Below are positions 11,351 through 54,784 of a stretch of DNA of 64,000 nt, piece after piece. Made by a program: the position numbers and the translations under genes. The notes beneath the pieces are model-generated. The model was not told the DNA's origin. It did no database searches and saw nothing but the letters and a program-made list of their open reading frames with translations. Numbering within the stretch: position 1 is the first letter of the stretch; each line of letters begins with the position of its first letter. The DNA is from Collimonas sp. OK412 (GTDB lineage Bacteria; Pseudomonadota; Gammaproteobacteria; Burkholderiales; Burkholderiaceae_D): positions 124,001 through 188,000 of the forward strand of contig NZ_FOLC01000003.1 of the NCBI RefSeq assembly GCF_900112135.1, read 5' to 3'.

Positions 11351-12179
11351 ACGTGCTCATGGCCAGGCACAGGTCGCTCCAGACTTTGCCCTTGTCGCCC
11401 AGCTGGCGCAGCAGATAAGCCGGGTGATAGGTCACCACCAGAGGACGGTCGGCGTAGCGGTGCACGGAGCCGCGCAGTTTTGAAACCGGGGTGGCGGGAT
11501 CCAGTCCCAGCAGCGACAAGGCAGCGGTCTTGCCCAGCGCGACCAGGACGGTTGGCTGGATCAATTCGATCTGGCGCTGCAGATACGGCAGGCAGGCCGC
11601 CACTTCGTCCGCCGCCGGTGGCCGATCGCGGCCGGTGCCGTCGGTGGGGCGGCACTTGACGATATTGGCGATGTACGCGTTTTCGCCGCGCTTCAAGCCC
11701 ATCGCCAGCAGGATATTGTCGAGCAGTTTACCTGCCGGGCCGACGAACGGCTCGCCCTGGATATCCTCGTTGCGTCCGGGACCTTCGCCGATGAACAGCC
11801 ATTTGGCCTTGCTGTCGCCGACACCGAACACGGTATTCTTGCGCCCCTGGCAGAGCCCGCAAGCTGTGCAGCCTGCCACTGCCTTCTGCAACTGTCCCCA
11901 ATCCATCGCGGCGGTGGAAATCCCCGCCTGGACGGCTGCCTGCGGTACGGATACCGGTTCGGCGTCGGCCCAGGCTGAAACCGCCGGATTATCCTGCACG
12001 CGGCTCGCCATCGGCTCGACCCGCTGCGGCACCGGCACGGCGGGAATTTCCACCGCCGGCGCCATATCCGCTTTTATCAGTTCTGCGCCTGCCAAGCCGG
12101 CGCCGCCATCGCGCCGCAGCCACAGCGGGCCGAGGCCGATCTCGTCAAGGAAAACGCTGCGCCTGCTCATCTCGCTCAT
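11331..12179 (-). CDS. Type-4 (4Fe-4S) uracil-DNA glycosylase
   Basis: A 282-residue enzyme that removes uracil from DNA. The catalytic domain begins near residue 92. Iron-sulfur ligands are likely Cys104, Cys107, Cys176 (VKCRP) and Cys196. Motif A is GEGPGRNED (131-139) and the C-terminal motif is YHPAYLLR (251-258). Residues 1-23 form a basic and hydrophobic peptide (SRRSVFLDEIGLGPLW) joined to the enzyme by a roughly 65-residue Ala/Pro/Val-rich linker that is probably disordered. The gene overlaps rimI by 4 bp (ATGA) and DUF1853 by 20 bp, indicating tight coupling. Confidence 0.93.
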   Translation of the reverse strand: MSEMSRRSVFLDEIGLGPLWLRRDGGAGLAGAELIKADMAPAVEIPAVPVPQRVEPMASRVQDNPAVSAWADAEPVSVPQAAVQAGISTAAMDWGQLQKAVAGCTACGLCQGRKNTVFGVGDSKAKWLFIGEGPGRNEDIQGEPFVGPAGKLLDNILLAMGLKRGENAYIANIVKCRPTDGTGRDRPPAADEVAACLPYLQRQIELIQPTVLVALGKTAALSLLGLDPATPVSKLRGSVHRYADRPLVVTYHPAYLLRQLGDKGKVWSDLCLAMSTYANAGE

Positions 12180-41338: not shown

Positions 41339-41339
41339 G

Positions 41340-41379
41340 AAAAAAAACGCAGCAGATTATTCATCTGCTGCGTTTTTTT
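41340..41379. terminator. Bidirectional terminator between yicC and hom
   Basis: An A-run, a 10-bp perfect stem CGCAGCAGAT/ATCTGCTGCG with a TATTC loop and seven T, between convergent genes. Confidence 0.9.
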
Positions 41380-41424
41380 ACGTTGACGCTGGAAGCGCCA
41401 ATCATCTTCCATCAAGACAGGCGC

Positions 41425-42826: not shown

Positions 42827-44056
42827 TCAAGCCTTGCCGTGGCGCCGGCGATAACCTTCGAGGAAGCTGGCGATGCGCCCCATGGAATCGGCCAGGTCGT
42901 CGGTGTTCGGCAGGAACACCACGCGGAAATGGTCTGGCGTCGGGCAGTTGAAGCCGGTTCCCTGGACAATCAGCACGCGCTGCTCGGCCAGCAATTCGTA
43001 GGCGAAATCCTGGTCGTCGCTGATCGGGTACATCTTCGGATCGAGGCGCGGGAACATGTATAGCGCAGCCTTCGGCTTGACGCAGGTGACGCCCGGGATA
43101 TCGGTCAGCAATTTATACGCCATGTCGCGCTGGCGCGTCAGGCGGCCGCCCGGCCCGACCAGGTCGTTGATGCTCTGGTAGCCGCCCAGCGCGGTCTGGA
43201 TCGCATACTGGCCAGGCGCGTTGGCGCACAGGCGCATCGACGCCAGCATGTTCAAGCCCTCGATATAGCCTTTGGCATGTTTTTTCTCGCCCGACACCAC
43301 CATCCAGCCGGCGCGGTAGCCGCAGGAACGATAGTTTTTCGACAAACCGTTGAATGTGATGAACAGCACGTCGTCGGCCAGCGCCGCCAGCGAAGTATGG
43401 GTCTCGCCGTCGTACAGCACCTTGTCGTAGATCTCGTCGGCAAAAATGATCAGCTGGTGCTGGCGCGCCAGGTCGACGATCTGCTGCAGCAGCTCCACCG
43501 GGTACAGGGCGCCGGTCGGATTGTTCGGGTTGATGACGACGATCGCGCGGGTATTGCTGTTGATTTTCTTCTTGATGTCTTCGATATCCGGGAACCAGCC
43601 GGCCTGCTCGTCGCAGATGTAATGGCGCGGGGTGCCGCCGGACAGGCTGACCGCCGCGGTCCAGAGCGGATAGTCGGGCGCCGGCACCAGGACTTCGTCA
43701 CCGGTGTTGAGCAAGGCGTTCATGCTCATCACGATCAGTTCCGAGGCGCCGTTGCCCAGGTAGATATCGTCGATCGTGACGCCCTGGATCTTTTTTTGCT
43801 GGCAATAATGCATCACCGACTTGCGCGGTGCGAACATGCCCTTGGAATCGGTATAGCCGGAAGCGTTGCCCATGTTGAGGATCATGTCCTGCACGATTTC
43901 ATCGGGCGGCTCGAAACCGAACACGGCCAGGTTGCCGATGTTCAGCTTGATGATCTTGTGACCCTCTTCTTCCATTTGCCGCGCTTTTTCCAGCACGGGG
44001 CCGCGGATGTCGTAACAGACATCGTCCAGTTTTTTCGATTTTTGAATCGGTCGCAC
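42827..44056 (-). CDS. alaA: Alanine transaminase AlaA-like PLP aminotransferase
   Basis: A 409-residue class I/II aminotransferase that makes alanine from pyruvate and glutamate. It starts MRPIQKSKKLDDVCYDIRGPV, characteristic of AlaA/YfbQ. PLP contacts include VVINPNNPTGALYP, FADEIYDKV and the Schiff-base Lys in FNGLSKNYRSCGYRAGW. It is followed on the same strand by hom. Its leader region upstream of 44056 contains an unusual large inverted repeat (44098-44272), whose minus-strand reading ends in a T-run and could act as an attenuator. Confidence 0.93.
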   Translation of the reverse strand: MRPIQKSKKLDDVCYDIRGPVLEKARQMEEEGHKIIKLNIGNLAVFGFEPPDEIVQDMILNMGNASGYTDSKGMFAPRKSVMHYCQQKKIQGVTIDDIYLGNGASELIVMSMNALLNTGDEVLVPAPDYPLWTAAVSLSGGTPRHYICDEQAGWFPDIEDIKKKINSNTRAIVVINPNNPTGALYPVELLQQIVDLARQHQLIIFADEIYDKVLYDGETHTSLAALADDVLFITFNGLSKNYRSCGYRAGWMVVSGEKKHAKGYIEGLNMLASMRLCANAPGQYAIQTALGGYQSINDLVGPGGRLTRQRDMAYKLLTDIPGVTCVKPKAALYMFPRLDPKMYPISDDQDFAYELLAEQRVLIVQGTGFNCPTPDHFRVVFLPNTDDLADSMGRIASFLEGYRRRHGKA

Positions 44057-44097
44057 AGCGCAATCCCTTGTATTTTACGCAACATTATCCAGCATTA

Positions 44098-44272
44098 AAA
44101 AGCTGTCTGGAAAATTGGGTTATGGTCACACACGGGTCAGTGCGCCGCACAAATGCTTGCGACAACCCCTTGTGAGGGCGCGCCAGGGCTCGACACCCCC
44201 GCATTTCACGACTTTTCAGACAGCTTTTCGGCAGTGCACAATTCACCGCCCGAACCACCCATTCTGCCGAAA
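44098..44272. repeat. Double inverted-repeat region between alaA and the arn cluster
   Basis: Repeat 1: AAAAGCTGTCTGGAAAA (44098-44114) and TTTTCAGACAGCTTTT (44213-44228) are complementary over 16 bases with one bulged G and enclose 98 bp. Repeat 2: TTTCGGCAG (44226-44234) and CTGCCGAAA (44264-44272), exact, enclosing 29 bp and starting inside the right arm of repeat 1. The interior has more pairing options (GGGTT/AACCC, CACAA/TTGTG). On the minus strand repeat 1 ends in five T. The rest of the 44057-44439 gap shows only a possible TACAAT -10 near 44320. It could be a structured leader, a small RNA or a relic mobile element; no known RNA family was recognised. Confidence 0.5.
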
Positions 44273-44439
44273 GCGTGAGGTTTTATCAATCAATACCGCA
44301 AGTTCCTGGACGGAAAACGCTACAATGCAGCACTTTATTTTCCATTTTCCGGGAATTTGCACATCGTCTGCGGTCTATCCTTTGGTTCAGCTAAGTATTC
44401 GTGGATAGGATCAACCCCTCAACGTGTAAAGATAATGCA

Positions 44440-44838
44440 ATGAAGCTACATACCACCCCGACCCAACAGTACCAGACAGTCACGGCCTACGACGACAAGG
44501 GCGTGGAAATCAACGCCGTCCGCTATGAACATAGCCTGCTGGTGCTGCCGGAAGCTGCGCCGGTGCCATGGCCGGTGAGCGGCTTCGACGCCCTCCATGC
44601 CGAACATTTCGCGCATATAGACAGCACCCGGCCCGATGTCGTGATCCTCGGCACCGGCGCGCGCCAGCGCTTTGTCCATCCGAAGCTGACCAGCGTGCTG
44701 ACCGCGCGCCGCATCGGCGTCGAATGCATGGATAACAAGGCCGCCTGCCGCACCTACAACATCCTGATGGCCGAGGGACGCAAAGTCGCCCTGGCCCTGA
44801 TTTTCAATACCGACGAGGAAACCGCCCAAGATGCGTGA
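44440..44838 (+). CDS. Mth938-like domain protein
   Basis: A 132-residue soluble protein of the Mth938/NDUFAF3-like (DUF498) family. Typical segments are YEHSLLVLP, PDVVILGTGARQRF and GVECMDNKAACRTYNILMAEGRKVALALI. Relatives in mitochondria assist complex I assembly; the bacterial role is unknown. The ATG at 44440 (MKLHTTPTQQY) is preferred to the in-frame start at 44401. Its end overlaps arnT by 8 bp, so it is the first gene of the lipid A modification run. Whether it is functionally tied to that pathway or only shares the promoter is open. Confidence 0.88.
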   Translation: MKLHTTPTQQYQTVTAYDDKGVEINAVRYEHSLLVLPEAAPVPWPVSGFDALHAEHFAHIDSTRPDVVILGTGARQRFVHPKLTSVLTARRIGVECMDNKAACRTYNILMAEGRKVALALIFNTDEETAQDA

Positions 44839-54696: not shown

Positions 54697-54744
54697 CAAG
54701 ATGGCCTGAACGGCGGCGCAGCGATGCGCTTGCCGGATGGCAGA

Positions 54745-54784
54745 ACGGGTGCAATTCAATTCCGGTTGAATTGCACCCGTTTTA
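54745..54784 (+). terminator. Terminator after phoH
   Basis: A perfect 15-bp stem ACGGGTGCAATTCAA/TTGAATTGCACCCGT with a TTCCGG loop, followed by TTTATTT. Confidence 0.9.

Follow-up and report, generated by a model that had tools for sequence, protein, structure and literature searches.

The 16-bp inverted repeat lying upstream of alaA in Collimonas sp. OK412 is best explained as the closing helix of a genus-specific structured RNA, carried in the 5' leader of alaA and acting in cis, perhaps as an unusual terminator; we hold this explanation tentatively, at slightly short of an even chance. Directly observed among the Collimonas genomes are the place of the element, its conservation and its pairing, in which the hairpins show some compensatory changes. 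Judged from the sequences, the Collimonas alaA mRNA probably begins with a folded RNA of ~150 bases, and this folded leader may switch alaA off early. The DNA analysed is a stretch of 64,000 nucleotides, referred to as the window, and its numbering is used throughout.

Results

The inverted repeat lies within the predicted leader of alaA

A promoter precedes alaA on the minus strand (Table 1). Its boxes, at 44289-44284 and 44266-44261, are spaced by 17 bp, and because of their position transcription is expected to start near 44254-44255, which places the repeat within the alaA leader. A promoter pattern was recognised upstream of alaA in 27 of the 30 family loci examined, two of the 30 being from Collimonas. 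The match of the alaA product to PRK08363 scores 343.3 bits, under the model cut-off of 534, and the name alaA is that of the earlier reader; hom comes after alaA on the same strand. The -10-like box of a possible second promoter just past the repeat is altered in two Collimonas leaders, to GACAAT in L018 and to GATTTT in L019. On the far side of the promoter, the segment 44311-44345 varies hardly at all within the genus and can be recognised in other genera; it lies upstream of a divergent plus-strand gene starting at 44440 and contains TACAAT, a possible -10 box.

Table 1. Features of the alaA leader region, in window positions
Feature	Position	Strand	Remarks
-35 box TTGATA of the alaA promoter	44284..44289	-	promoter scan; identical in 15/15 Collimonas rows
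-10 box CAGAAT of the alaA promoter	44261..44266	-	promoter scan; identical in 15/15 Collimonas rows
Hairpin P1, GGCGGTG-loop-CACTGCC	44230..44250	-	one pair G-C to A-U, also G-U
P2 closing helix, 5' strand (right arm of the repeat)	44213..44229	-	divergence 0.063-0.090
Optional hairpin P2a	44185..44199	-	only in the long form, 6 of 15 species; both sides change in two pairs
Hairpin P3, enclosed by P2	44161..44183	-	two pairs with both-side changes
Hairpin P5 inside the closing helix	44127..44144	-	95.4% of cells paired, zero compensatory changes
P2 closing helix, 3' strand (left arm), ending in U5 44101-44097	44097..44114	-	divergence 0.008-0.037
GATAAT just past the repeat, which may be the -10 box of another alaA promoter	44084..44089	-	consensus match 9/12
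alaA, alanine aminotransferase, GTG start	42827..44056	-	best NCBIfam match PRK08363, alanine aminotransferase

The arms of the repeat, 44098-44113 (AAAAGCTGTCTGGAAA) and 44213-44228 (TTTTCAGACAGCTTTT), form 15 of 16 pairs, 12 of them contiguous. The near-perfect 16-bp inverted repeat described in the earlier note is thereby borne out; the distance between the arms, given there as 98 bp, was counted as 99 bp. That the minus-strand hairpin ends in a T-run 40 bp before the alaA start also holds, with U5 at 44101-44097 and the GTG at 44056. Fifteen registers, spread over four places of the window, hold repeats of equal quality (16 bp, at most one mismatch, loop of 3-130); 20 windows in which single bases were shuffled within 500-bp blocks gave 0.35 registers on average. 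The remaining three places comprise two short-loop hairpins (41342 and 54744) and one repeat internal to an ORF (11909-12058). At 41339-41381, a strong short terminator-like hairpin with T7 lies behind hom and adjoins the end of a plus-strand ORF that presumably resembles yicC. The exact 16-bp repeat at 54744-54781 has a 6-base loop, is followed by a plus-strand T run and is probably a terminator. The repeat at 11909-12058 (16 bp, one mismatch, loop ~110) lies within a minus-strand coding ORF, which we take to resemble a uracil-DNA glycosylase family protein, and is likely due to chance.

The earlier note had also described a second, exact 9-bp inverted repeat as belonging to the region. This repeat exists and is exact (44226-44234 and 44264-44272), but exact 9-bp repeats with a loop of up to 60 occur 95 times in the window, compared with 21-24 times in each of five shuffles. 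One half, 44264-44272, overlaps the -10 box; since the other, 44226-44234, is kept letter for letter in only 2 of 15 Collimonas species, the repeat was attributed to chance and rejected as a part of the structure.

The element is a single-copy feature of Collimonas genomes

A DNA search of 60 genomes retrieved the locus in the 15 genomes of the same genus, with E of 8.9e-40 or better; for one of the 15, G001, only a part of it was retrieved. Some DNA match at E of 1 or less was present in 41 of the 60, those in other genera being weak or confined to the promoter side. A covariance model was built from the 15 Collimonas sequences and run on 392 genomes of the family (15 Collimonas and 377 others). 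It gave one match, at the alaA leader, in each of the 15 Collimonas genomes (E 3e-19 to 2e-34), and its position upstream of alaA is the same in all 15. The 377 other genomes yielded a single weak fragment of 43 nt in G299 (E 0.11), and 399 genomes of the order yielded two same-genus matches plus weak fragments in G703 and G588 (E about 0.03), these large scans having been run with stricter filters under which distant relatives can be missed. The three fragments are short and weak (E 0.11, 0.03 and 0.03) and were taken as chance. The eight public records holding the leader motif are all titled Collimonas.

In its own genome, the element was found by the covariance model at one place only, which was matched again on the reverse strand at E 0.108, and a DNA search of the same genome gave no second copy, all other matches having E of 1 or more. 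The arm word, with at most one mismatch, occurs there only at the two arms. The other 14 Collimonas genomes hold 13 further single arm sites (one mismatch) in nine genomes and no second pair of arms; as a control, the reversed word gave five sites over all 15 genomes. Phages and plasmids gave no match to the element, and an origin from either was rejected. One 18-base word of the element is present in three viral contigs, which is about chance level by estimate. A multi-copy mobile repeat was likewise rejected, given one copy in the own genome and, under the strict filters of the family scan, a single model match per sister genome (14 of 14). The proposal of a mobile repeat, in the form in which it had been put forward, does not agree with one copy per genome and the absence of a second pair of arms.

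A shared fold with compensatory changes in the hairpins

The 15 Collimonas sequences, 13 of them distinct, were aligned on a shared minus-strand fold consisting of P1, a 17-pair P2 with an inner extension, the optional P2a and the hairpins P3, P6 and P5. Over the whole structure, 95.9% of 615 cells are paired, compared with 40.2-50.0% for slid partners. In P2a 86.7% of cells are paired, L018 and L019 breaking two of the five pairs. Thirteen columns of P2a are absent from the nine short forms, and the arm spacing of long and short forms differs by 11-13 bp.

Changes on both sides were found in five pairs, one in P1, two in P2a and two in P3, a number reached by 18 of 500 shuffles. The 18 cells with both-side changes, as well as the covariation score, were reached by none of the 500. 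Because the shuffles ignore relatedness and the sequences tested had also served, in part, to derive the structure, we regard the support from covariation as moderate. P2 itself has no compensatory change among the 15 sequences.

When alignment columns were shuffled 100 times, the consensus fold was better than every shuffle. For the element, the column-shuffle z is -9.0 on the minus strand and -7.4 on the plus strand (-7.9 and -7.6 when L019 is left out), and for the whole leader it is -6.1 and -6.6, so that this measure does not settle the strand. Many of the kept pairs read as G-U on the minus strand, where the plus strand would have A-C; the minus strand is preferred because of these pairs and of the promoter position. 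In single sequences, the folding z over 191 nt is -1.32 for the plus and -1.94 for the minus strand, and -2.96 for the 159-nt RNA. The minimum-energy folds predicted for the inner part are not the same from species to species.

Constraint on the arms and predicted folding of the transcript

At fourfold sites of alaA the mean pairwise divergence is 0.233-0.251, against the values of the two arms in Table 1 (the 3' arm taken with U5); the inner variable part has 0.19-0.23 and the stretch behind the 3' arm 0.046-0.077. Of the 15 rows, 14 have an intact U5. Two of the A-side partners of U5 vary, by way of G-U and in one case C, a pattern expected if a minus-strand U tract matters. In L019, whose genome is 1.7 Mb, P2 and U5 are lost.

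When transcription was set to start 7 nt past the -10 box, the predicted probability of P2 was 0.92-1.00 in 14 of 15 species, whether the RNA comprised the whole leader or 40 nt of alaA as well, and 1.00 for an RNA ending at U5. With 60 and 90 nt of alaA added, it became 0.69 and 0.43 in the species of the window and 0.34 and 0.64 in L014; with 90 nt, it was 0.06 in L009, 0.13 in L012 and 0.19 in L011. When the start was moved 4 nt earlier, P2 in the leader alone had a probability of 0.03 in L017 and 0.15 in L007, and several species favoured other folds. From this dependence on length, P2 is predicted to form as the RNA emerges, and its fate in the long mRNA to depend on the species.

An alternative pairing, P0, joins a 5' GRYRGUU to the left arm, with 7 of 7 pairs in 14 of 14 rows when L019 is left out and 97.1% of cells paired when all 15 rows are counted; in 40 column shuffles, windows having 7 full pairs and at least three variable columns numbered 0.175 per alignment on average. 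P0 lies mostly upstream of the expected start and was set aside as an alternative fold because transcription would need to begin about 2 nt past the -10 box. In the companion hairpin, located behind the repeat, only 85.3% of cells are paired.

Comparison with known RNAs and with alaA leaders of other genera

The earlier note recognised no RNA family in the region, and none emerged here: the covariance models of Rfam 15 matched two tRNAs only in the whole window, and in the element region and five sister loci the matches were far below the gathering score. The element is like 6S RNA (RF00013) in size and in having a terminal closing helix, but it does not match the RF00013 model. The single match of the genome to that model is located elsewhere (C28:108179-108359, 69.7 bits), and 6S RNA was rejected.

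A classical intrinsic terminator has a G+C-rich stem, a loop of 3-8 and a U run. A scan for such terminators (loop 3-8) found none at the element, where a stem and U5 are present with a loop of ~100 nt. Intrinsic-terminator attenuators and riboswitch leaders of amino-acid genes resemble the element in placing a structured RNA between promoter and start codon, with a closing helix followed by U5 and a biosynthetic gene downstream. The Collimonas element differs from them in that its loop, of ~100 nt, is structured and not short, in its occurrence in a single genus among those searched, and in lacking an established antiterminator or known ligand.

Leader-peptide attenuators, such as those of the thr, his and leu operons, share with the element a position upstream of an amino-acid gene. 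An Ala-rich frame, GCA TTT GCT GCG GCG (four Ala codons in five), is present in L009, L010, L011, L015 and L016; its start is not kept, stops close the frame in other species, and the copy of the window carries a 1-nt shift. A GTG frame at leader base 21 or 22 runs for 7 codons in 13 of the 15 leaders and for 12 in the remaining two, L018 and L019. A second GTG frame, of 14 codons (MTI.QFSR.LF.A.), is kept in 13 of 15. Both kept GTG frames overlap conserved helix strands and, by eye, have neither a ribosome site in the preceding 14 bases nor a run of Ala or Thr codons. A leader-peptide attenuator was rejected, as none of the ORFs of the 15 leaders combines a ribosome site with a run of regulatory codons.

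Among the non-Collimonas loci, 25 of 28 have a recognised promoter, with leaders of 36-235 nt, 20 of the 25 being 36-75 nt long. The closest AlaA seen outside Collimonas, that of genome G028, is 94% identical over a 185-residue query; its leader (L063) is 52 nt long and carries no repeat, and the Collimonas insert is absent from the non-Collimonas leaders read. At L063 (G028:C1, about 670418-670642), where the leader insert is absent, ~120 extra bp are present between two divergent promoters. Three leaders of other genera, L064, L071 and L085, are 148, 220 and 235 nt long and have repeats of their own that, by eye, are unrelated to the Collimonas repeat; inserts in the alaA leader seem to have arisen repeatedly. 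A motif like CGCGCTGCAACAT right behind the alaA promoter gave a regular-expression match in 17 of 30 loci (L061-L090) and in neither of the two Collimonas loci, three of the 30 having no promoter match and being left out of the motif test. This motif is part of a hairpin in some loci and is possibly an operator or a 5' hairpin.

Discussion

The proposal that the repeat belongs to an alaA leader RNA on the minus strand is upheld in part, by the position of the promoter, the presence of the element in all 15 Collimonas genomes, the compensatory changes in the hairpins and the G-U pairs. According to this explanation, the alaA promoter would start minus-strand transcription near 44254, and the RNA would fold into P1 and then into the 17-pair P2 around three or four hairpins, followed by U5. 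P2 and U5 may together constitute a slow, unusual intrinsic terminator or a pause, the strength of which would be set by the inner hairpins. Some transcripts would stop there, giving a leader RNA of about 147-160 nt, and the others would continue into alaA; the ratio of terminated to read-through RNA would be set by a signal that disturbs how the inner hairpins fold. From the DNA we infer the point at which transcription starts, the strand used, termination, and whatever signal or effect on alaA there may be. It is decidedly unlikely that the leader goes further and senses a metabolite, as a riboswitch or attenuator of a new class and a genus-restricted control of alanine aminotransferase and perhaps of hom in which the terminator loop would be the sensor domain.

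If the RNA acted in trans, as an independent small RNA of ~150 nt to U5 made from the ancestral alaA promoter, alaA would be served by the GATAAT box at 44089-44084. An own promoter, a terminal helix followed by U5 and the high conservation of the 3' arm and of the stretch behind it (0.008-0.037 and 0.046-0.077) would suit such an RNA, and the weak second promoter behind the repeat leaves room for it. We nevertheless consider it unlikely, as the promoter is the same as that found before alaA in other genera and the second promoter is a weak consensus match with a -10 box altered in L018 and L019. Nor is it probable that the leader is structured but passive, stabilising or insulating the 5' end of the alaA mRNA or being merely tolerated, with neither switch nor termination. 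The variation of leader length between genera (36-235 nt) indicates that inserts are tolerated, no conserved alternative fold is established and P2 is unstable in some species once 60-90 nt of alaA are added; however, the strong constraint on both arms and U5 exceeds the needs of a spacer.

A MITE remnant whose terminal repeats are the 16-bp arms, left by one insertion in an ancestor of Collimonas and either inert today or co-opted, would account for the insert missing from the non-Collimonas leaders read and for arms that by eye lie near the edges of the genus-specific insert, as compared with L063, the nearest empty site, which is too diverged for a base-exact comparison. This origin is very unlikely: there is no second copy in the own genome, no second pair of arms in the 15 genomes and no phage or plasmid match, and compensatory changes and low divergence are unexpected for an inert remnant. 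Hardly credible is a DNA-level operator in which the arms would be two inverted binding sites of an alaA repressor. The arm sequences are indeed nearly invariant, but long and short forms differ in arm spacing by 11-13 bp, and RNA-type changes, compensatory and G-U, are seen in the hairpins that surround the arms or lie between them.

Read as a cis-acting leader, the element adds to a known kind, the structured leaders of biosynthetic genes, with a terminal helix that is unusually long-looped. Fifteen genomes with graded variants, one of them with a decayed helix, make it testable. Among the open full-text papers retrieved on Collimonas, alanine aminotransferase or Herbaspirillum RNAs, none deals, to judge by title and beginning of abstract, with this leader. 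If the switch is real, it would represent an RNA control of alanine synthesis, of which no description was found in the literature searched, and an instance of a structured regulator that a single genus evolved on a promoter otherwise conserved.
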